This document shows positions 7,017 to 34,911 of a DNA stretch of 37,797 nucleotides, in pieces. This stretch comes from Desulfatiglandales bacterium. Lineage in GTDB: Bacteria > Desulfobacterota > DSM-4660 > Desulfatiglandales > HGW-15. The notes below the pieces were generated by a model that saw only the letters and a program-made list of their open reading frames with translations, searched no databases and was not told the DNA's origin. The stretch covers positions 1-37,797 of the forward strand of contig JAQYVK010000307.1 of NCBI GenBank assembly GCA_030145585.1, given 5' to 3'. Both the position numbers and the translations under genes were made by a program. Each line of letters starts with the position of its first letter. Position 1 is the first letter of the stretch.

Positions 7017-7028
7017 TAGTAAGGCGGG

Positions 7029-7130
7029 CCGGTTGTAATGCATAATTCCCACAACCGGTAGGGGCCGGTTGTAAAGCATAATTCCCACAACCGGCAGGGG
7101 CCGGTTGTAATAGGCAATTTTCACAGCCGG
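7029..7130. repeat. Three tandem 30-bp palindromes (period 36)
   Basis: Units at 7029-7058, 7065-7094 and 7101-7130 each have CCGGTTGT, 14 bases, and ACAACCGG (ACAGCCGG in the third). Six-base spacers YAGGGG separate them. Units 1 and 2 differ at two loop positions; unit 3 is more diverged. A fourth unit lies at 34822-34851. Each can form an 8-bp hairpin. They start 12 bases after the DUF5658 stop codon and precede the liv promoter. Confidence 0.9.
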
Positions 7131-7182
7131 CCGCCTTGCACCTCTTTTAAATCCCTCATTCCCCGGAAGTTCGCTAACCCCA

Positions 7183-10727: not shown

Positions 10728-10762
10728 GCTGTTCCGCTGAAAGAAACTTTCAGCGAAACAGC
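10728..10762. repeat. 16-3-16 hairpin repeat, copy 1
   Basis: GCTGTTCCGCTGAAAG, loop AAA, then CTTTCAGCGAAACAGC: a 16-bp stem with a single mismatch. The core GCTGAAAG...CTTTC and the outer GCTGTYC arms recur at 21021, 25122 and 25954. This copy is in the reverse orientation, because the shared flank (a second CAGCCGCT palindrome) lies to its left. Confidence 0.85.
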
Positions 10763-10838: not shown

Positions 10839-10904
10839 TTCTGTATTCCCTGGCCGCCATAGCTTGCCCGCCAGAGGCGGTTAAGCGACGGTGGCTGACT
10901 CCTG
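10839..10904 (+). repeat. 66-bp palindromic repeat, copy 1
   Basis: It runs from TTCTGTATTCC through GGCCGCCATAG to CGACGGTGGCTGACTCCTG. By hand alignment it matches 27449-27514 on the opposite strand at about 53 of 66 positions without gaps. Nested inverted repeats are present: GCCGCC with GGTGGC, and CCGCC-aga-GGCGG at 10868-10880. It ends 12 bases after the livK stop codon. Confidence 0.75.
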
Positions 10905-10916
10905 ACTCCTGAAGTA

Positions 10917-12131
10917 TTACGGTGTTTCCATTCTAAGGGTTACGATCTCTCCTCCTCTATATTCCCAGACCTCAATGGGCGTGATGACATCTCCATATAT
11001 GTCGAAATCAACGGATCCGGCCGCACCCTCGTAATTAATGGCCTTCCCCTGCTTCAAAAGCTTAAAGGCCTTTTTAAATTCGCCGGGAAAGACGACTTCC
11101 CCGGGAGGATTGGCCACAACCCTCAGTTCATTTCTGATATTCTTTGACGTTAGTTTTTTGCCCTTCACATGGGCCGCATAGGCCGCAAGGCCGATGATGG
11201 CCGTGGCATCATAGGCATTGGTGATGTATGGCAAATTGGGCAATCGACCGAATTCGGCTTGATAGTACTTATTGAACAATTTCGCCGGCTCACCGCCTGC
11301 CGTACTCGGGGCGGTTCCCTTTTGACCTTCAACATTTTCCGCGCCGAGGGCCTTGATGATATCCACGGATTTGGTTCCGTCACAGAACAAAAACTTCTTA
11401 TATTTGAAAAACTCAATGGCCTCTTTCAGATAGACTTTTGCGTGATCCGGATAACTGAAGGCTGCCAGTCGATCGGGATTTCCTTTCAAGGCTTTCCTGA
11501 GTTCAGCAGTGTAGGATTCAGGGGCTTTTTCATCATGGGGAACCATGGCAAGCACCTTGCCCTTCCATTTTTTTTCAAAAGTCTCTGTGAATACTTCTGC
11601 AAGTCCCTGTCCATAAGCATTATTCACGTAAATAACGGAAATTGTTTTGTTATAGCTTGCGGCCAGTTTGGCGGTCACTCTCCCCTGCAGATCGTCTGAG
11701 GGGGTCGTGCGAAATAAATAGTCCTGGCCTTGATCAGCCGGCAACACGGTCATCAATGGGTTGGTGGATGCGGGCGAGATCATGATCACTCGGTTCGGAA
11801 TGGTCACGGATTCTGCCACGGCCAAGGTAACGCCGCTTGAAAGGGCACCGATGATCGCCACCACTCTATCCACTTCAACCAACTTTTTGGCCGCATTCGT
11901 TCCCGGAATGGCGGCCGTCTCGCTATCCTCATGAATGAGCTTCATGGTAAGACCGGCATCTGCCAACTGTTTTGCAGCCAGCACGGCGCCATTTTTGATG
12001 TTCGGGCCGTATTCCTTCAAAGGCCCGGTGTGGGCCATCAGGGTTCCTACCTTTATTTCCTGGGCGATAGCCCCGGAAGCAAATGCCAACAAAAAGGTCA
12101 ATACGCTTGCAAGTAGAATAGCTCTTTTCAT
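10917..12131 (-). CDS. livK: Branched-chain amino acid ABC transporter, periplasmic binding protein LivK
   Basis: A 404-residue periplasmic solute-binding protein that captures the substrate and hands it to LivH-LivM. Residues 1-23 are a signal peptide (MKRAILLASVLTFLLAF, cleavage after AIA). The mature protein starts EIKVGTLMAHTGPLKEYG, the type I periplasmic-binding fold of the Peripla_BP_6 family; IIGALSSGVTLAVAE and ISPASTNPLMT are the usual ligand-pocket segments, with YVNNAYGQGLAEVF at the hinge. The start ATG 12131 has GGGAGG five bases upstream; an upstream alternative frame start at 12161 lacks one and would spoil the signal peptide. It is convergent with livGFHM and must have its own promoter. 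Confidence 0.94.
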   Translation of the reverse strand: MKRAILLASVLTFLLAFASGAIAQEIKVGTLMAHTGPLKEYGPNIKNGAVLAAKQLADAGLTMKLIHEDSETAAIPGTNAAKKLVEVDRVVAIIGALSSGVTLAVAESVTIPNRVIMISPASTNPLMTVLPADQGQDYLFRTTPSDDLQGRVTAKLAASYNKTISVIYVNNAYGQGLAEVFTETFEKKWKGKVLAMVPHDEKAPESYTAELRKALKGNPDRLAAFSYPDHAKVYLKEAIEFFKYKKFLFCDGTKSVDIIKALGAENVEGQKGTAPSTAGGEPAKLFNKYYQAEFGRLPNLPYITNAYDATAIIGLAAYAAHVKGKKLTSKNIRNELRVVANPPGEVVFPGEFKKAFKLLKQGKAINYEGAAGSVDFDIYGDVITPIEVWEYRGGEIVTLRMETP

Positions 12132-12178
12132 GATTACCTCCCTTTTATAAGTTATAGCCATGTGATGATCATCTTCAT

Positions 12179-12346: not shown

Positions 12347-12406
12347 AAGGGTATCACTAGAAAGGATATAGTGCGAAAAAAACCTCATGTCAAGGAAAGA
12401 AAAGAG

Positions 12407-12591
12407 TCCCTGATCATCATCAAGGCATCATATAAAAGAACGGTTTAGGGTTTAAGGTATGCGGTTTAGGGTCTTAAAGCTTCTAATCCACAATTACGTG
12501 AACCTTATAAGTTCAGAGTTATGCTTTTCCCCTTATACCTTATACCCTTTACCTTACGCCTTTTTATACAATACCTTGCTAATGATCAGGG
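12407..12591. repeat. CCTGATCA-ended palindromic element A (185 bp)
   Basis: The ends are near-perfect inverted repeats: TCCCTGATCATCATCAAGG on the left pairs with CCTTGCTAATGATCAGGGA on the right, continuing through TATAAAA. The left interior has GGTTTAGGG/TTTAAGG units and the right interior CCTTATACC units. Its right half and about 60 bases beyond match element B (15703-15876) closely. It contains no gene and fills the livK/dehydrogenase gap. Confidence 0.85.
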
Positions 12592-12703
12592 ATATTCCAT
12601 AAGCGGCCCATTTCATTTCTGAAAACTAAATTAGGTGGTGGACCTAGGAGAGTTGCCCAGGTATAGGAAAGGTTGGATGCATTTTGATGGGTGGGAGATG
12701 AAA

Positions 12704-14338
12704 TCAGGCCGATTTTCGGACTTTGTCCTTAATCCTGTTAATGTGACCCCGGCCCAACCCTTTGACCTCACATCCCAGTTCAAAATATCTCTCAATTTTC
12801 TCATCATCCAGAATGCCGAAACAATCTATAACTGCCAAAGGGCCGCCCGCCATCTCTACCACTTGATCAGGATCCAACTCCAAATAGTTCTTGTGGCGAA
12901 CAGCCAAAACAACCGCCTCAGAGCCGTTTAGGGCCTCGGCCAAGTCCGGGATCATCCTGAAATCTTCCAGCTGCTCCTGATTGCGGAAAAATTGAGACCA
13001 GCTCGTCCCGGCGGCAGGATAGGACTCCTGTTTTTCTATCTCCCACCAGTGCTGGACATATGGATCATGGGCTTTAATTTCCGCCCCCATTTCAGTCAAT
13101 TTTCTGACGATGATTTCAGACCCACTGTACCGTGTATCTGAGACACCCTCCCGGTATGAGACACCCAAAAGGGTTATCTGTGAAGCGGCCACAATTCGAC
13201 CCATGTTTCTCAAGGCGTCTCGGACAAGCTGGGCTGCATGCAAGGCCCTGGTATCATTGATATTGATCGCTTCCGGTGTGATCTTGAAAATATCATTTTC
13301 AAACCCCAGCAGGTGCTTGTAAGCCCAGAGTCCCAGGCCGCCGTCCTTTGGCAGACAATAGCCTCCGATGCCGGGACCCGGAAAGATGATATTGTTATGT
13401 GTCGGGCGGACCTTGATGGCATCGATCACCTTGAGAAGGTCCACACCGTTGGTTTCGGAAAAGAGGCTCCATTCATTGAGAAAGGCGAGAATGGTGGCCC
13501 GGTAACTGTTCTCCACGATCTTACAGGTTTCACTTTCAATGGGTCTATCAAGGACCGTCATTGGGAATTTTTCCACATTGACGATCTCCGATAGGAATTG
13601 GGTGACTTTTTCCCGGCTTTCCCGATTGACCCCGCTACAGACACGCCAAAAATCTCTGACGGACCTGACATAATCCTTGCCCGGCATCACCCTTTCAAAG
13701 CTGTGAGACAACATGGGTTCATCCTTGAGGCCCCTTTTTGCGAACGCCTTTTTAATCAGGGGATAAGCCACATATTCGGTCGTTCCGGGGGGCACGGTCG
13801 TCTCAATCAATACCAGACATTGGGGATCGATCCGCTCCCCAATGACCTTGAAACTCTGCTCCAGGGCGCTGATGTCCGCATGTCCGCTCCGAAGATTTCC
13901 CAGTTCCTGCTTGAGAAAGTCGCACTGGACATCTACCACGAGCACGTCGGCAAGCTTCAGTGCGTCATAAGTGAACGTGGCTGTGAGGGTCTTTTTTTGG
14001 TTCACACAGCGGTCGATCATGGGAGCCACTTCCGGGTCTTCCGAACTAACGGGGGATAATCCCCTGTTAAAAAGAGGGATTTTCCAGAAGCTCCGAGGAC
14101 TTGGCCTCTGCATGCCGATGACGAATTTATTCGGTTTGCCCGTCTTTCTGTCGACCGTGTCCGCCACCACAGCGGCCATGACGGCGCCAACAAATCCGAG
14201 GCCCATGACCACGACAATCTCACGGCCTTTTTCCCTTTGAGCGTCGGCCAGCTTTTTTAAGCGCTCATATTCCTGAGTGTATTCATCCTCACCGGGAAGC
14301 TCGAATTTTTCACCATCGGGACTTACAGAATATTCCAT
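12704..14338 (-). CDS. Nucleotide-sugar (UDP-glucose/ManNAc type) dehydrogenase
   Basis: A cytoplasmic NAD-dependent enzyme that oxidises a UDP- or GDP-sugar at C6 to the uronic acid for surface polysaccharides. At 544 residues it is about 100 longer than typical members. The Rossmann motif VVMGLGFVGAVMAAVVAD lies at about 41-60, preceded by a charged 40-residue extension. LIETTVPPGTTE (about 175) and the catalytic cysteine C328 in GPGIGGYCLPKDGG are present, followed by the C-terminal UDP-binding domain with LGVSYREGVSDTRYS. The sugar substrate cannot be told; GGYCLPKD fits the UDP-ManNAc branch as well as UDP-glucose. ATG 14338 has AAGGGG six bases upstream. No other polysaccharide gene is near. 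Confidence 0.85.
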   Translation of the reverse strand: MEYSVSPDGEKFELPGEDEYTQEYERLKKLADAQREKGREIVVVMGLGFVGAVMAAVVADTVDRKTGKPNKFVIGMQRPSPRSFWKIPLFNRGLSPVSSEDPEVAPMIDRCVNQKKTLTATFTYDALKLADVLVVDVQCDFLKQELGNLRSGHADISALEQSFKVIGERIDPQCLVLIETTVPPGTTEYVAYPLIKKAFAKRGLKDEPMLSHSFERVMPGKDYVRSVRDFWRVCSGVNRESREKVTQFLSEIVNVEKFPMTVLDRPIESETCKIVENSYRATILAFLNEWSLFSETNGVDLLKVIDAIKVRPTHNNIIFPGPGIGGYCLPKDGGLGLWAYKHLLGFENDIFKITPEAININDTRALHAAQLVRDALRNMGRIVAASQITLLGVSYREGVSDTRYSGSEIIVRKLTEMGAEIKAHDPYVQHWWEIEKQESYPAAGTSWSQFFRNQEQLEDFRMIPDLAEALNGSEAVVLAVRHKNYLELDPDQVVEMAGGPLAVIDCFGILDDEKIERYFELGCEVKGLGRGHINRIKDKVRKSA

Positions 14339-14605
14339 TATATCCCCTTTTTATGAAGTTTGAATTCCCTGCACCAAACTGTAGCTTGAAAATTGGTGCG
14401 GGGGGTTCATTTAGGATTTTTTTATGAATAATGCAAATTACGGGCCGGTCCACCCATAAGAAGAGGAAAGGCCGTCCACAATTTTGGCAATACTCTACCA
14501 CCCGACACCCAGCCGTTTATTGAAAATTCCCAAAAATGTCAAGGAATTCCTCCCCCATTTCCTTGCCGTTAGGACCGTATAGGGTCGAGGTTATTGATGC
14601 ATTTA

Positions 14606-15589
14606 TCAAACAAAGGTTTTGGCGGCTCTCTTTATGAGATCGAGCAGGTCAAATATCCGGGCAACATATTGATCTCGTATGTGAAATTTTGAGTCGCCTT
14701 TCCCTCTTAATTCCCTATCGACACTGTTAATAAATTTGAATAGTCTCCTCTGATGGATCCCAAGTTTGTGCTGAATAGGATCGGTAATGATCCCTGAGAA
14801 GGAAGTCAGTATCGCAAGCGCTGCCATGAGGGATCCTGTTGATGCGATGACAAGACCCATCGATGCGGAGGCTGGGAAAAGACTATAGTAAAGACCACCC
14901 AGAGTCGGCCCAAACATAAAATTGGATATGGCTGCCTGTTGGGCGATCGCTGAGGCAACGGCTCCGCCAGTGGTCAGCACACCGGGGGTCAGTTTACTAA
15001 ACATCGTGGCCCCAGCGGAGATGGTAATAATATTGCCTGCCAAATCGGCCGCGGCGGTTCTGCTCTTGGAGTATTCGATTAAATTTTCCTCCAGGGCGGC
15101 GCGAAATTTTGGGTTTTTTGATTTCAAATAAATCTTGAAAAGATCGCCACTGAAAAGGGATGATATTTCAGGCTGGTTGAGTATCTCCGCAAACAGGGCG
15201 TCTTTAAACGATTTGCGATCGCCCTGGGCGTAGGGCAATTCAAGGAGTTCCGTAAATATGACCCAGTTTATTTCCTGTTGAACTTTGGTTTCAAATCCAA
15301 CAGGTAATCTTTCCAGATGACCAGGAATTTTAATAAAACCCATTTTTTTGAGTAGAGAAGAAGAAGCTTTTGCTCCAATGAATGGCAGCGCCCACAGGAT
15401 ATTGACCGGGGCTTTATAAAGATCCGACCCAAATGCCCTTTTGTTGACTTTGAGTGAGCCCTTAAATGAGAAAAACTTTTTCGAGAATTTGGGCACTTTT
15501 TCTTTGCGAGAACGAATATAATTACTGATGGCCCTATCCACGGCGAGACCGGTTTTTTGATTTTTATCCTGTGGGTTCGTGTCGTCCAT
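14606..15589 (-). CDS. DUF6635-like protein of unknown function
   Basis: A 327-residue protein I can place only tentatively in DUF6635, from the pattern LAVDRAISNYIRSRKEKVPKF, FGSDLYKAPVNILWALP and the C-terminal RELRGKG..HIRDQYVARIFDLLDL. Residues 1-60 are basic; two or three hydrophobic, Gly/Ala-rich stretches (about 190-265, for example ASAIAQQAAISNF and ASTGSLMAALAILTSF) suggest membrane association. Function is unknown. ATG 15589 gives MDDTNPQDKNQ, with AAGAGA nine bases upstream; a TTG six codons earlier is less likely. A promoter lies at 15666-15694. It is divergent from the radical SAM gene. Confidence 0.72.
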   Translation of the reverse strand: MDDTNPQDKNQKTGLAVDRAISNYIRSRKEKVPKFSKKFFSFKGSLKVNKRAFGSDLYKAPVNILWALPFIGAKASSSLLKKMGFIKIPGHLERLPVGFETKVQQEINWVIFTELLELPYAQGDRKSFKDALFAEILNQPEISSLFSGDLFKIYLKSKNPKFRAALEENLIEYSKSRTAAADLAGNIITISAGATMFSKLTPGVLTTGGAVASAIAQQAAISNFMFGPTLGGLYYSLFPASASMGLVIASTGSLMAALAILTSFSGIITDPIQHKLGIHQRRLFKFINSVDRELRGKGDSKFHIRDQYVARIFDLLDLIKRAAKTFV

Positions 15590-15665
15590 TATCGAAGATC
15601 TCTTCAATTCGGGTCACAAAATCGGCCAAAATCTTGAAACATTGACACCAAAGACTCTCTTTTCT

Positions 15666-15694
15666 ATTATCTATTTCCACATTATTAAAGTAAA
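15666..15694 (-). promoter_or_regulatory. Candidate promoter of the DUF6635-like gene
   Basis: Read on the minus strand: TTTACT (15694-15689), a 17-base spacer, GATAAT (15671-15666), about 80 bases before the start codon. Four of six and five of six bases match the consensus. It lies just outside repeat element B. Confidence 0.5.
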
Positions 15695-15702
15695 CGAAAA
15701 GT

Positions 15703-15876
15703 TCCTGATCACCATAAATAAAGGACGGGTCAAAGGTCAAAGGTATAAGGTTCAAGGTTGAAAACTTCCTATCCAGCATTCCGTGAACCTTACAAGGTTA
15801 GAGCTATGCTTTTTCCCTCATGCCTTACACCATGTACCTTACACCTTTTTTTATAATACCTTGCTGGTGATCAGGA
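15703..15876. repeat. CCTGATCA-ended palindromic element B (174 bp)
   Basis: It starts TCCTGATCACCA and ends TGGTGATCAGGA, a perfect 12-bp inverted pair, with AAGGT-rich left and CCTTACACC-rich right interior. The right half aligns with element A over more than 100 bases. Homology runs on past the end (TAGAAGCGGC, then AGTGGTGGA), reaching the first in-frame ATG of the next gene. Confidence 0.85.
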
Positions 15877-15954
15877 TTACTCTAGAAGCGGCTAATTTCG
15901 GTTCTTATAACTATGTTAAGTGGTGGATTTGGGAAAGTAGGAATAGGGCGCAAA

Positions 15955-16935
15955 GTGAAGAAGACAGATCCCCTCCTTTTATTCAAAGACTGCCGTTTGT
16001 GTCCAAGACATTGCGGCGTGAACAGACTCAACCAAAGGAAGGCTGCTCCTCCAAGCTTCTGCGGTGAGAGCTCGCTTCTTCGTGTGGCCCACGTGGGTCC
16101 CCATTTTGGAGAAGAGCCACCCATTACAGGCAAAAATGGATCAGGGACAGTCTTTTTTTCAGGGTGTTCTCTCAAATGTTCCATTTGCCAGAATCACCAG
16201 ATATCAAGAGACGGCCTAGGAAACACCATAAGCGTGCATGATCTATACCTCAGGCTGGAAGAAATGATTAGAGTTGATAAAGTGCACAACATCAACCTTG
16301 TAACCCCGGATCACTTTTTTCCACATGTTTTTGAATTAGTTACCCTCCTTCGCCGGAACGGACACGATCTCCCTGTAATCTATAACCTTTCAGGTTATCA
16401 GAGCACGACTTTGCTGGCGTGGGCTGAGGATTTTGTCGACATTTATCTCCCCGACTTTAAATATGCGAATCCGGCCCTATCCAAGCACTTGTCTAATTGT
16501 AAAGAGTACCCGAGTGTGGCTCTCGATGCCATTTCGGTGATGGTCAGGCAAAAAGGATTTCTAGCCGCATCTGTGGAAGGGACTTCCCTGGCAAAAAAAG
16601 GGGTTCTAGTCAGACACATGATCCTTCCCGGTGAGGTTCGAAATTCCATGGATGCCTTGACCAGCCTGTTTTTAGAGTTTGGGAGTGGGTTGCCTATCAG
16701 TCTGATGTCCCAGTATTATCCTGTTCTCCCCCAAGAGGGGAGGGATCTTAATCGCCCCATCACCCAAGAGGAGTTCGACAGGGTTTATGCTCATGCACTG
16801 GATCTGGGACTCGAAAACCTCTATGTTCAATTTCTCGATAATGGAACATCAATCGAAGGGTGCCCCCCCTCCTTTCTTCCAGATTTCCACCAAAAGAATC
16901 CATTTTTGAACACCGTTCCAAAATCAACCATCTAA
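15955..16935 (+). CDS. Radical SAM protein, PflX-like (pyruvate formate-lyase activase type)
   Basis: A 326-residue iron-sulfur protein of the COG1313-type branch of radical SAM enzymes; the substrate is unknown. The SAM-binding [4Fe-4S] motif is C71-SLK-C75-SI-C78 (CxxxCxxC) after SGTVFFSG. An N-terminal cluster C13-LRC-type (CRLCPRHCGVNR, plus C36) may hold a second cluster. Further family segments are YNLSGYQS, DIYLPDFKYAN, VLVRHMILPGEV and LMSQYYPV. The GTG start at 15955 is preferred, because GGGCGC precedes it and the upstream in-frame ATG 15913 has no ribosome site and lies in sequence shared with repeat element A's flank. It stands alone between two repeat elements. Confidence 0.87.
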   Translation: MKKTDPLLLFKDCRLCPRHCGVNRLNQRKAAPPSFCGESSLLRVAHVGPHFGEEPPITGKNGSGTVFFSGCSLKCSICQNHQISRDGLGNTISVHDLYLRLEEMIRVDKVHNINLVTPDHFFPHVFELVTLLRRNGHDLPVIYNLSGYQSTTLLAWAEDFVDIYLPDFKYANPALSKHLSNCKEYPSVALDAISVMVRQKGFLAASVEGTSLAKKGVLVRHMILPGEVRNSMDALTSLFLEFGSGLPISLMSQYYPVLPQEGRDLNRPITQEEFDRVYAHALDLGLENLYVQFLDNGTSIEGCPPSFLPDFHQKNPFLNTVPKSTI

Positions 16936-17283
16936 ATTAGGTATCAAGGGACTGTTGCCCAAAGCCTCATAGGCCCCTTTTTGATATGTTAAGATACCTT
17001 TTCTTCAACATCAAGGCTCCCACCAGGCAATTCAGAAAAGGCATCAAAACCTGCATTGGATGGGGGTTTGTGCAACAGCCCGTAAACATTGAAATCATCA
17101 GATTAGTGTATATTCCTGATCACCATCAAGGTATGGATAAAAGGCTCAAGGCTTAAGGCTCGGGGCGCAGGGTAAAAAAACTCTGAGTTGCTGTGAGCCC
17201 CGTGCCCTGTGCCATGCGCCTTTTACCGTTAAACGTATACCGTTTTCAGATGCCTTGATGGTGATCAGGGGCTATTCACAGGA
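16936..17283. other. Intergenic region before larC
   Basis: No gene is seen. A weak inverted repeat (ATCAAGGG with CCCTTTTTGAT, 16944-16988) follows the radical SAM gene and may end its transcript. The rest is repeat element C (17115-17269) and the start of the larC promoter region. Confidence 0.4.
17115..17269. repeat. CCTGATCA-ended palindromic element C (155 bp)
   Basis: CCTGATCACCATCAAGG at 17115-17131 is repeated perfectly inverted at 17253-17269. The interior has AAGGCTCAAGGCTTAAGG on the left and GCGCCTTTTACC on the right around a centre GGTAAAAAAACTCTGAGTT that also occurs at 22286-22310 (element D). Confidence 0.88.
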
Positions 17284-17312
17284 TTGACTTCTGTGGGGTG
17301 TACTGTTAAAAA
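17284..17312 (+). promoter_or_regulatory. Candidate promoter of larC
   Basis: TTGACT (17284-17289), a 17-base spacer, TAAAAA (17307-17312), about 75 bases before ATG 17386 and just beyond repeat element C. It probably drives larC-pgpA-cinA-thpR. Confidence 0.45.
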
Positions 17313-17385: not shown

Positions 17386-18549
17386 ATGAAAACAGCCTAC
17401 CTTGATTGTTTTTCCGGGATCAGTGGAGATATGTTTCTGGGGGCCCTACTCGACGCAGGACTTCCATTTGAGACACTGGAAGCGGCTCTTCATACCCTTC
17501 CCCTTAAGGATTATAGCCTTGGGATGCGACGGGAAGAAAGGGGACATCTATTTGGAACTCGATTCCTCGTGAGCGTTGATAAGGATAAGCAGGTTGAGAG
17601 AGGTATTAGAGACATAAAGAAGATTATCACAGCCGGTGACCTGAGCAATGGCGTAAAGATAAAAAGTATCGAAGTATTTGAGGCGATCGCCGCCGAAGAG
17701 GGGAAGATCCATAATCGTCCTCCGGAAGAGGTCCATTTTCACGAAGTGGGTGCCGCAGATTCCATCGTTGATATTGTCGGGACGTTTTTTGGAATAGAGT
17801 TTTTGGGCATTGGGTTCATAACGGCCTCTTCACTCCCATTGGGTTCCGGCTTCACAGAGACGGAACATGGAACAATCCCCCTCCCCGCTCCAGCCACCGT
17901 GGCTCTTTTAAAAGGCATCCCGGTTTACGATTCCGGGCTCAGGCACGAACTTGTAACCCCCACAGGTGCCGCTCTGGTCAGGGGGCTTGCAGGCTCCTTT
18001 GGCGTTATGCCCCCCATGATCGTGGAAAATGTAGGCTACGGGGTCGGTGGCAGAAACTTGCCTGACAGGCCCAACCTCCTCCGCATTCTCGTTGGTCGGG
18101 ATCAGCCTGAAGACCATATCGAGACAATCGTCATGCTCGAAGCCAACCTTGATGATACGAACCCGGAATGGATGGGTTTTATCATGGATCGATTATTTGA
18201 GGCAGGCGCCCTGGATGTGGTTTTTTGCCCGGTTCAGATGAAAAAAAATCGGCCCGGTATTCTCGTTCAGGTCATGGCACACCCGCAACAGCGGGACGAA
18301 TTAATAGACATCCTTTTTAGGGAAAGCACCACCCTTGGAGTCCGTTTCCGATATAGCCAGAGAAAAGTGCTTCAGAGATCCATAGAGGAAATTGACAGTC
18401 CCTGGGGAAAGATCCTCGCGAAGAAAGTTTCGCGACCGGACGGCTCCTTCTTTTTTCAGCCTGAATACGAGGCCTGTAAAAAGATTGCAAAAAAAAACGG
18501 CCTTCCCATTAAGGAGATATACTACTGGGTGATTTCATCAAATAAGTAA
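17386..18549 (+). CDS. larC: Nickel-pincer cofactor biosynthesis protein LarC
   Basis: LarC is the CTP-dependent nickel insertase that completes the nickel-pincer nucleotide cofactor of lactate racemase and related LarA enzymes. The 387-residue frame starts with the family hallmark AYLDCFSGISGDMFLGALLDAG. It contains HFHEVGAADSIVDIVG (about 120), LPLGSGF, LVTPTGAALVR, GYGVGGRNLPDRPN and the C-terminal LEANLDDTNPEWMG with MKKNRPG. The two halves, made in some lactobacilli by a frameshift (LarC1/LarC2), are here in one unbroken frame. No larA, larB or larE is nearby. It heads a run with pgpA (20-base gap), cinA and thpR. Confidence 0.93.
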   Translation: MKTAYLDCFSGISGDMFLGALLDAGLPFETLEAALHTLPLKDYSLGMRREERGHLFGTRFLVSVDKDKQVERGIRDIKKIITAGDLSNGVKIKSIEVFEAIAAEEGKIHNRPPEEVHFHEVGAADSIVDIVGTFFGIEFLGIGFITASSLPLGSGFTETEHGTIPLPAPATVALLKGIPVYDSGLRHELVTPTGAALVRGLAGSFGVMPPMIVENVGYGVGGRNLPDRPNLLRILVGRDQPEDHIETIVMLEANLDDTNPEWMGFIMDRLFEAGALDVVFCPVQMKKNRPGILVQVMAHPQQRDELIDILFRESTTLGVRFRYSQRKVLQRSIEEIDSPWGKILAKKVSRPDGSFFFQPEYEACKKIAKKNGLPIKEIYYWVISSNK

Positions 18550-21020: not shown

Positions 21021-21055
21021 GCTGTCCTGCTGAAAGAGACTTTCGGAAGGACAGC
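21021..21055. repeat. 16-3-16 hairpin repeat, copy 2
   Basis: GCTGTCCTGCTGAAAG, loop AGA, CTTTCGGAAGGACAGC: a 16-bp stem with one mismatch and one G-T pair. The right arm GGACAGC can instead pair with the following GCTGTTC (21057-21063), giving an alternative hairpin. It lies 18 bases after the thpR stop. Confidence 0.8.
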
Positions 21056-21188: not shown

Positions 21189-22235
21189 ATGGCAGATCAT
21201 AAAGATAGGGAAAAGGCGGTAGATCAAGCCATCTCGCAAATAGAGAGGCAATTTGGCCGGGGGGCCATCATGAAGATGGGGGAGGATAACATCCCCGATA
21301 TACCAGCTATCTCCACCGGTTCCATTGCCCTGAATTTGGCACTTGGCATAGGCGGTGTGCCCCGAGGAAGGGTGGTGGAAATTTATGGTCCCGAGTCGTC
21401 AGGGAAGACGACCCTGGCCCTGCACGTAGCTGCAGAGACCCAGATTCTGGGAGGCATGGTGGCTTTTATCGATGCGGAGCATGCCCTCGATGTAAATTAC
21501 GCCAGGCGGTTGGGCGTCGATGTGGACAGCCTTCTGGTTTCACAGCCCGACACAGGCGAGCAGGGACTGGACATTGCGGAGATCCTGGTCCGGAGCGGCG
21601 CCATCGATACGTTGATCATCGACTCTGTTGCGGCCCTGGTGCCAAGGGCTGAGATCGAAGGAGACATGGGTGACTCGCATATGGGGCTTCAAGCGAGATT
21701 GATGTCGCAGGCCCTCAGAAAATTGACCGGCACGATCAGTAAATCCATGACGTGCGTTATATTTATTAATCAGATTAGGATGAAAATTGGTGTGATGTTT
21801 GGAAGTCCGGAGACGACCACCGGGGGGAACGCCCTGAAATTTTATGCCAGTCAGCGGTTGGACATTCGTCGTATAGGCGCCATCAAGGAAGGGGATCAGA
21901 TCATCGGGAACAGGACCCGGGTCAAGGTGGTCAAAAATAAGATAGCCCCACCCTTCAAGGAGGCTGAGTTTGACATCATATATGGCAAGGGCATTTCAAA
22001 GGAGGGGGATATTCTTGATTTGGGTGTGTCTTTAGGAGTCATTGAAAAAAGCGGCTCATGGTACTCCTCGGATGGTGAGCGGATGGGACAGGGAAGGGAA
22101 AACGTAAAGGGATTTTTGGTGGAAAACCTGGATATCAAGGAACATATTACCGATCTCATTATGGAAAAGACAGGGCTTAAAAAAGTCGAAGAAAAACCCC
22201 AAGAAGAAGCAGAAAAGGAACAGGCAGGTAAATGA
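21189..22235 (+). CDS. recA: Recombinase RecA
   Basis: RecA coats single-stranded DNA, pairs homologous strands and activates LexA self-cleavage. The 348-residue protein has the full core: [27 protein letters not shown] split here around Walker A GPESSGKT (67-74), the catalytic Glu region [12 protein letters not shown], loop L1 around [46 protein letters not shown] (loop L2 region), and an acidic C-terminal tail [15 protein letters not shown] 21189 follows AAAGGGGGTG. Upstream lie a hairpin repeat and a triple 14-bp repeat that may be a damage operator. No recX follows; alaS does, an arrangement common in proteobacteria. Confidence 0.98.
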
Positions 22236-22237
22236 AA

Positions 22238-22345
22238 GGTTAAAGGGATAAGGCTCAAGGCACAAGGTAAAAAAACTCTAAGTTCCACTGCACTGTGTAC
22301 CCTGCGCCGCATATTTACACCCTAAACCTTTTGCCTATGAAGACT
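22238..22345. repeat. Diverged element D, related to elements A-C
   Basis: It directly follows the recA stop. ATAAGGCTCAAGG and then GGTAAAAAAACTCTAAGTT match the interior of element C almost exactly, and CACCCTAAACCTTTTGCC makes the right half. The CCTGATCA ends are missing, but ATAGAAGCTGGCAAGTTCC (from about 22348) resembles the outside flank of element B. It looks like a truncated or older copy. Confidence 0.65.
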
Positions 22346-22453
22346 TCATAGAAGCTGGCAAGTTCCTGTTTTACTCAGGGTGAGCTTATCTCTGAAGCAA
22401 TGAAATGTGACGTTATTATCAAAAATATTTAAAAAGTAATAAAAGGTAATTGC

Positions 22454-25121: not shown

Positions 25122-25174
25122 CTGAAAGTATCATTCATGCTGAAAGAGTCTTTCGGCATGAATGATACTTTCAG
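25122..25174. repeat. 25-3-25 hairpin repeat, copy 3
   Basis: A 25-base arm from CTGAAAGTATC to GCTGAAAG (25122-25146), loop AGT, and its complement to 25174, with only one G-T pair imperfect. The inner GCTGAAAG/CTTTCGGC core and the following AGGACTGCGGCT flank match copies 1, 2 and 4. It lies 25 bases after the alaS stop. Confidence 0.85.
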
Positions 25175-25209
25175 CAGGACTGCGGCTATGCATTCGGATA
25201 GATATAATA

Positions 25210-25953: not shown

Positions 25954-26015
25954 GCTGTCCGGCTTAATGTGGCTTTCAAGCTGAAAGTGTGTTTCAGCCG
26001 GACAGCCGCTGTCCG
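25954..26015. repeat. 25-3-25 hairpin repeat, copy 4, with alternative hairpin
   Basis: Outer arms GCTGTCCGGCT (25954-25964) and AGCCGGACAGC (25996-26006) pair perfectly; inner CTTTCA-agc-TGAAAG pairs again; about eight bases between are unpaired, giving a 53-base unit. The right arm CGGACAG can also pair with CTGTCCG (26009-26015), so two exclusive hairpins are possible. Confidence 0.8.
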
Positions 26016-27448: not shown

Positions 27449-27514
27449 CAGAAGTCAGCCGCCGTCGTTTGCCCGCGTGCGACAGGCCAACTATGGCGGC
27501 CAAGGAATACAGAA
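27449..27514 (-). repeat. 66-bp palindromic repeat, copy 2
   Basis: On the minus strand it reads TTCTGTATTCC, GGCCGCCATAG, ... ACGACGGCGGCTGACTTCTG, the same layout and length as 10839-10904. GCCGCC and GGCGGC ends can pair. It lies in the trxA/radA gap and contains an in-frame GTG (27477) that could be mistaken for the radA start. Confidence 0.75.
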
Positions 27515-31156: not shown

Positions 31157-31283
31157 CACCCCCTCCCAAACCCTCCCCCTCGAGGGGGAGGTGCTGACTG
31201 TAGATGCTCAATTTCTTACAGTCAGCCTATGAGCTGACTGTAGATGCTCAATTTCTTACAGTCAGCCGGGCAGGGTGGGGGTG
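31157..31283. repeat. CACCCCC-ended element with twin 34-bp hairpins (127 bp)
   Basis: Ends CACCCCCTCCC (31157-31167) and GGGTGGGGGTG (31273-31283) are inverted with one mismatch. Next to the left end is a perfect 20-bp palindrome CCTCCCCCTC/GAGGGGGAGG (31172-31191). Two identical 34-base units (31193-31226, 31233-31266), each with a 10-bp stem GCTGACTGTA/TACAGTCAGC and a 14-base loop, follow at a 40-base period. It is non-coding and MITE-like. Confidence 0.85.
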
Positions 31284-34680: not shown

Positions 34681-34911
34681 ATGTAGAAGTCATCTCAAAA
34701 ATAGAAAAATGGTTCGAGGTCAAGGACGGCGCAAGGATCTGAAGAATCCCGACCACAGGTCGGAATTCTTCTAAGGCGTCCGAAAGGACGCCAGGACGCA
34801 CAGAGATCGGCCCTTCGATTGCCGGTTGTGAAAATTGACCCTTACAACCGGCCACTCAGGGTCATGAGCCTGTCGAATGAGCCATTTAGCATTTTTGAGA
34901 TGGCTTCTATA
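34681..34911. mobile_element. MITE-like element (231 bp) overlapping the end of the MFS gene
   Basis: The left end ATGTAGAAGTCATCTCAAA and the right end, which read inverted is ATATAGAAGCCATCTCAAA, match at all but two positions, and the match goes on through AAATGG. Inside are a hairpin GAAGAAT..CCGACC/GGTCGG..ATTCTTC (34741-34771), a GNRA-loop hairpin GGCGTCC-gaaa-GGACGCC (34775-34792) and a CCGGTTGT palindrome (34822-34851). No gene. The stop codon of the MFS gene (34907-34909) lies in the right end. Confidence 0.7.
34822..34851 (-). repeat. CCGGTTGT palindrome, fourth unit
   Basis: CCGGTTGT, 14 bases, ACAACCGG: the same 8-14-8 layout as the tandem units at 7029-7130. Read on the minus strand, its 14-base centre shares 11 bases with that of unit 3. 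Confidence 0.85.

Follow-up and report, generated by a model that had tools for sequence, protein, structure and literature searches.

In a 37,797-nucleotide stretch of DNA from a Desulfatiglandales bacterium (the window), we identify three short elements, A, B and C, which on sequence grounds are non-autonomous copies, or miniature inverted-repeat transposable elements (MITEs), of an IS1380-type insertion sequence (IS). Copies of this family recur at a fixed distance from predicted sigma70 promoters. We consider it likely that the MITE selects the upstream edge of such promoters, with promoter-bound RNA polymerase as the most likely cue. The window corresponds to contig C307 in a metagenome-assembled genome (MAG; G000) of 4.72 Mb, which comprises 623 contigs and is 83.6% complete.

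The promoter register, on which the initial annotation had not remarked, is apparent across copies. TTGAC(A/T) stands at one distance past the end CCCTGATTCACC in many of them, starting 12–14 nt from the element edge at 24 of 56 right ends, against 0.3 (maximum 4) in shuffled flanks. When copies are aligned on TTGAC, a −10 box emerges only at a 17-nt spacer (mean score +2.2, compared with about −3 elsewhere). At least one side carries a sigma70 promoter at a gap of 12–14 nt in 39 of 54 copies, against 2–10 in eight other 3-nt intervals; these 54 rows include about three reverse readings of the same element, and the fraction is slightly understated. The element can lie in either orientation: its two dissimilar ends meet promoters across an equal gap, mainly on the right side, with the far side contributing 10 of 54. 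We recorded the register rule before applying it to 87 previously unused copies. In this hold-out set a promoter stood at gap 12–14 in 52 of the 87, compared with 3–10 in six other intervals, and TTGAC starts on the right side numbered 21 at gap 13 and 15 at gap 14, with at most two anywhere else. The register was seen in hold-out copies from G005, G007, G008, G010 and G080 (three of six in the last); the single hold-out copies from G012 and G068 have no promoter there.

Beside elements, a good −10 box follows TTGAC in 79% of cases; the figure falls to 41% for TTGAC sites in intergenic DNA and to 9% for those within genes (p 2e-6). We therefore take the mark to be the whole promoter, and this enrichment speaks against a bare TTGAC motif. 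In several copies the −35 box is poor, yet a good −10 box stands in the correct place (TTTTCA-17-TATAAA, TTGAAA-17-TATAAT). The promoters are the host's own, pre-existing and outside the element, because the boxes persist where the element is absent: G015, a congener of G007, has three loci (L110, L112 and L123) that lack the element and keep both boxes, with L115 as a weaker case. The initial annotation had suggested looking for such empty sites in close strains. One filled site, beside a gene read as efp, appears to be shared (L109/L126). A promoter carried by the element was rejected, since copies show no relation to one another in the 12–14-nt gap or in the spacer, and promoters occur at empty sites. 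Five G010 loci (L259, L262, L269, L275 and L279) share a flank, AATGCTTCTCCGTTATTCAGCC, past the right end, which may mean that the MITE inserted several times into some other repeat or that these copies form a longer subfamily.

Evidence for transposition comes from duplications outside the outer ends. Exact 5-mer duplications flank 9 of 39 discovery copies, against 0.24 on re-paired flanks, and duplications of at least 4 bp flank 24 of 38 hold-out copies, against 0.86 expected. From the end sequence and the duplication length we had presumed membership of the IS1380 family. Within that family, IS1247 has inverted repeats of 16/13 and a 5-bp direct repeat (PMC3281130). A search of the relatives with PF13701 led to a partner IS in G006. 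On contig C167 the transposase gene starts just inside CCCTGATTCACCGTCAAGAAAA (start-side end CCCTGATTCACCGTCAAG), and on contig C354 CACTTAGGTGGTGGATTTGGG (far end TTAGGTGGTGGATTTGGG) lies just after the C-terminal portion of the gene; these ends, recovered on separate contigs of the split IS, match both outer ends of the MITE. Related ISs in G067 and G058 have the same start-side end, and their proteins are 79% and 72% identical. The partial transposases score 32.8 and 27.4 bits against PF13701, slightly under the curated cut-off of 34.7, and we use the label IS1380-type because this match, the ends and the duplication length are taken together. Other PF13701 transposases (L137–L139, L145) were rejected as partners, being without the MITE ends.

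We propose that the transposase complex would pick the upstream edge of sigma70 promoters, at about −44 to −50, as its target. Taking the −35 box as −36 to −31 places the 5-bp target at about −50 to −44, where the footprint of the holoenzyme ends on its upstream side. The cue would most likely be promoter-bound RNA polymerase, or DNA bent by polymerase, and insertion there would leave the promoter intact beside a gene-less element. Recognition of promoter-bound polymerase is, we infer, the simplest mechanism. More tentatively, and with slightly less than even confidence, we suggest that the IS1380-type DDE transposon family targets via promoter-bound sigma70 RNA polymerase and inserts at the upstream edge of its footprint, as a bacterial counterpart of eukaryotic transcription-machinery-guided integration.

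A transposase that reads promoter DNA by itself, through the −35 region or promoter shape and with no RNA polymerase, would fit the tight gap relative to the −35 box, and the promoter hexamers are the sole consensus near the insertion point, where no other was found. However, the signature includes the −10 box at its 17-nt spacing just as much, and copies with a poor −35 box and a good −10 box are also known, so that such a transposase would have to read both; we regard this explanation as unlikely. Alternatively, insertion could be unbiased and copies kept at the register since the element end acts as an activator site or insulator. The G000 end TTGATGGTGATCAGG does include an FNR/CRP-like box, TGAT-N4-ATCA, located near −60, and copies adjoin unrelated genes with conserved promoters. 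However, the same end in relatives reads TGAT-N5-ATCA, with the box broken, two different ends face promoters at an equal gap, no second peak lies one helical turn farther out, and the neighbouring genes are functionally unrelated, leaving retention improbable. An FNR/CRP operator module (TTGAT-N4-ATCAA, its spacing conserved, at one end only and a fixed distance from the promoter) was rejected on the N5 spacing in relatives and because either end faces a promoter.

An ordinary MITE inserting at random, with promoters nearby merely from survival in intergenic DNA, would account for the many copies near gene starts or ends and draws on the promoter-rich nature of that DNA. Yet chance cannot yield a peak 3 nt wide with near-zero counts at gaps 16–25, shuffled flanks give 0.3 where 24 were observed, and the hold-out disfavours it, so that we give it very little weight. 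Long hairpins in intergenic gaps could also suggest immobile regulatory or terminator palindromes of the host, akin to repetitive extragenic palindromes, a view refuted by the target duplications, the IS with the same ends and the empty sites, and one we hardly credit at all. A terminator or riboswitch was rejected, as the whole window gave zero matches to Rfam RNA families at gathering score and the adjacent promoter points away from the element.

Several observations weigh against selection of promoters by an IS1380-type MITE. All promoters are predictions, made with a scoring matrix that approximates E. coli promoters and was drawn from general knowledge. Between 28 and 40% of copies are without a scored promoter at the register, some of these being degenerate or following a stop codon, and the best promoter of element B lies outside the modal register. 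Both ends and a full transposase were found together on no single contig, all three close ISs being cut by contig edges or broken in frame, and G000 itself has only a weak 52-amino-acid PF13701 fragment.

The family is abundant and its architecture is larger than first described. With up to three mismatches, the 17-bp end has 99 matches in the 4.72-Mb genome and none in a reversed control. The initial annotation had asked for further copies, and 20 further G000 loci have both ends, spaced 124–282 bp (at least 20 paired-end loci elsewhere in the MAG); several additional loci have a single end, frequently near a contig edge. The MITE extends to further genera in the host's GTDB family and, more widely, in its order, at tens of copies per genome (right ends: 22 in G005, 33 in G007 and 31 in G010), and the named records with the MITE are uncultured Deltaproteobacteria or Thermodesulfobacteriota MAGs, one filed under Syntrophales. 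Outward of the end pair, one side usually continues for about 58 conserved bp and terminates in GGTGGTGGATTTGGG; the middle of this stretch is lineage-specific and similar within each genome, and its outer end is conserved between genera. The outer ends CCCAAATCCACC and CCCTGATTCACC form an imperfect inverted pair, and most copies measure about 180–300 bp.

The interior of the MITE is modular. Elsewhere copies most commonly contain a GC-rich core, about 90 bp long (TTAGATGCAAGGCGCCGAGGAGCGACGACTGAGGCGTA...TACGCCGCAAGGAGGAGCGATCGAAGGCAACGCCGCAGATGATG), with an AAGG hairpin nested in its loop at C452, C47b, C91 and C182b; in A, B and C the AAGG hairpin takes the place of this core. One copy (L104) has lost nearly all of its interior, and another (L132) consists of the flank and a single end only. 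The AAGG hairpin highlighted at the outset is thus present in the family but does not define it, being one among several exchangeable interiors. AAGG-heptad stretches without A's ends were found as matches to A's interior in G000 contigs C236 (L066) and C212 (L067), and the heptad hairpin may for that reason be a separate repeat. At L127 (G015 contig C318) the same kind of GC-rich core, CTACTGCGTTGCCCTCGTC...GCGACGTACTTTCATGTACGTC, is bounded by other ends (GCAGGTTGCTGAAAAACGCTCATC), and such cores may therefore move between repeat families.

Within the window, A, B and C have near-perfect inverted copies of CCTGATCACCATCAAGG at both ends and interiors of AAGG-heptad arms, as the initial annotation described, with AAGG on one side and its complement on the other. 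Its alignment of A with B, flanking sequence included, is borne out over 178 nt at 78% identity. The limits of 155–185 bp it gave are too short, as the conserved unit runs about 58 bp past one CCTGATCA-bounded end, up to CCCAAATCCACC, and the duplication sits there; the duplications of A and B are both perfect. No open reading frame of 100 amino acids lies wholly inside A or B. Folding of each element into one hairpin, also suggested there, holds for A, B and C as single-stranded DNA against shuffles (z −5.3, −3.9 and −9.6) and fails for D (z −1.0, no better than chance). D, which had been described as C's centre without the ends, does share a centre of 77 nt with C at 74% identity and lacks the ends; it also retains, at most, a fragment of the MITE flank, which scores 31 where the best of 300 shuffles reached 29. 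D is possibly a decayed MITE copy, at best a remnant. A second MITE-like unit at 16949–17084 (GGACTGTTGCCCAAAGCC...GGGTTTGTGCAACAGCCC, ends matching at 18 of 22 positions) lies directly against C, whose far end it may have eliminated. The possibility, named there as a refutation, that the likeness among elements was only low-complexity AAGG sequence did not survive, since the ends and flank are not AAGG and the 99 matches stand against none in the reversed control. The MITE interpretation, by contrast, gained support from the extra copies, from duplications of 4–5 bp far above chance, from the empty sites in G015 and from the IS with the same ends.

Table 1. Elements, target-site duplications and predicted promoters in the window.
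Feature	Coordinates	Strand	Details
Predicted sigma70 promoter at A	12365..12393	-	TTGACA 12393..12388, 17-nt spacer, TATATC 12370..12365; gap 14 nt
Target-site duplication AGAGT, A left copy, 5 bp	12403..12407	.	From sequence
Element A, full MITE, 241 bp	12408..12648	-	Ends: promoter side CCCTGATCATC at 12408, far side ...GGTGGTGGACCTAGG at 12648; AAGG-heptad hairpin interior
Target-site duplication AGAGT, A right copy, 5 bp	12649..12653	.	From sequence
Promoter-like site at B	15666..15694	-	TTTACT 15694..15689, 17 nt, GATAAT 15671..15666; gap 8 nt
Target-site duplication AAAGT, B left copy, 5 bp	15698..15702	.	From sequence
Element B, full MITE, 231 bp	15703..15933	-	AAGG-heptad interior
Target-site duplication AAAGT, B right copy, 5 bp	15934..15938	.	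From sequence
Element C	17115..17270	+	Inner end and promoter-side end both intact; AAGG-heptad hairpin; flank on the far side (17089-17114) decayed, CCC end lost
Predicted sigma70 promoter at C	17284..17312	+	TTGACT 17284-17289, 17 nt, TAAAAA 17307-17312; gap 13 nt
D	22232..22365	+	AAGG-heptad stretch and MITE flank fragment (GACTTCATAGAAGCTGGCAAGTTC); no recognisable ends

By Pfam assignment, the predicted promoter at A faces a Peripla_BP_6 gene (10917–12161), the promoter-like site at B faces a DUF6635 gene (14606–15607), and the predicted promoter at C faces a larC-type Ni_insertion gene (17386–18549). The window holds further repeats. Three tandem 36-bp units of GGGCCGGTTGTAATGCATAATTCCCACAACCGG (7026–7133) have an inverted relative 27 kb away (34820–34856), and two identical 35-bp hairpins, GCTGACTGTAGATGCTCAATTTCTTACAGTCAGCC, lie 40 bp apart at 31193–31267. 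Short dispersed palindromes around GCTGAAAG...CTTTCAGC (10732–10758, 21025–21051, 25122–25179 and 25976–26002) are possibly another small repeat family, and a 66-nt inverted repeat pair, 80% complementary, is separated by 16.5 kb (10839–10904 and 27449–27514).

To our knowledge, few bacterial transposons apart from Tn7-like cases choose a functional class of site. Ty1, Ty3 and piggyBac integrate near initiation sites through the transcription machinery, the same kind of mechanism as we propose with different machinery, and the likeness is one of analogy only. IS1380 appears in this connection only as an outgroup to piggyBac (PMC10813416). Most transposable elements insert at random locations, some favouring A/T-rich DNA (PMC9330008). 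The MITE shares with IS1380 elements such as IS1247 the PF13701 transposase of its partner IS, inverted ends starting with CC and a duplication of 4–5 bp; it differs in its promoter-register target choice, which was not found for IS1380 elements in the open-licence literature searched. Neither the MITE itself nor promoter-register targeting was found in that literature, which is weak evidence of novelty. Correia/CREE, MITEAba12 and BrickBuilt elements (PMC10969869) are likewise short, gene-less, intergenic and multi-copy with inverted ends, and BrickBuilt contains tandem repeats acquired by capture (PMC4596501), a parallel to the AAGG heptads of the present MITE. Those elements are known, however, for promoters inside the element, whereas here the promoter is the host's and lies outside at a constant distance. 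IS5 at fucAO (PMC11894529) is also an IS upstream of a promoter region, but there a fusion promoter arises at a single locus, with no constant distance to the −35 box kept throughout a genome.

If our proposal is true, the fixed spacing of 13–14 nt, found with either end and again in previously unseen copies and genomes, would imply promoter sensing by a mobile element. This would represent a new safe-harbour strategy and a route for hairpins and inverted repeats to spread beside promoters. It might also become a tool for mapping the active promoters of uncultured bacteria, or for engineering them.

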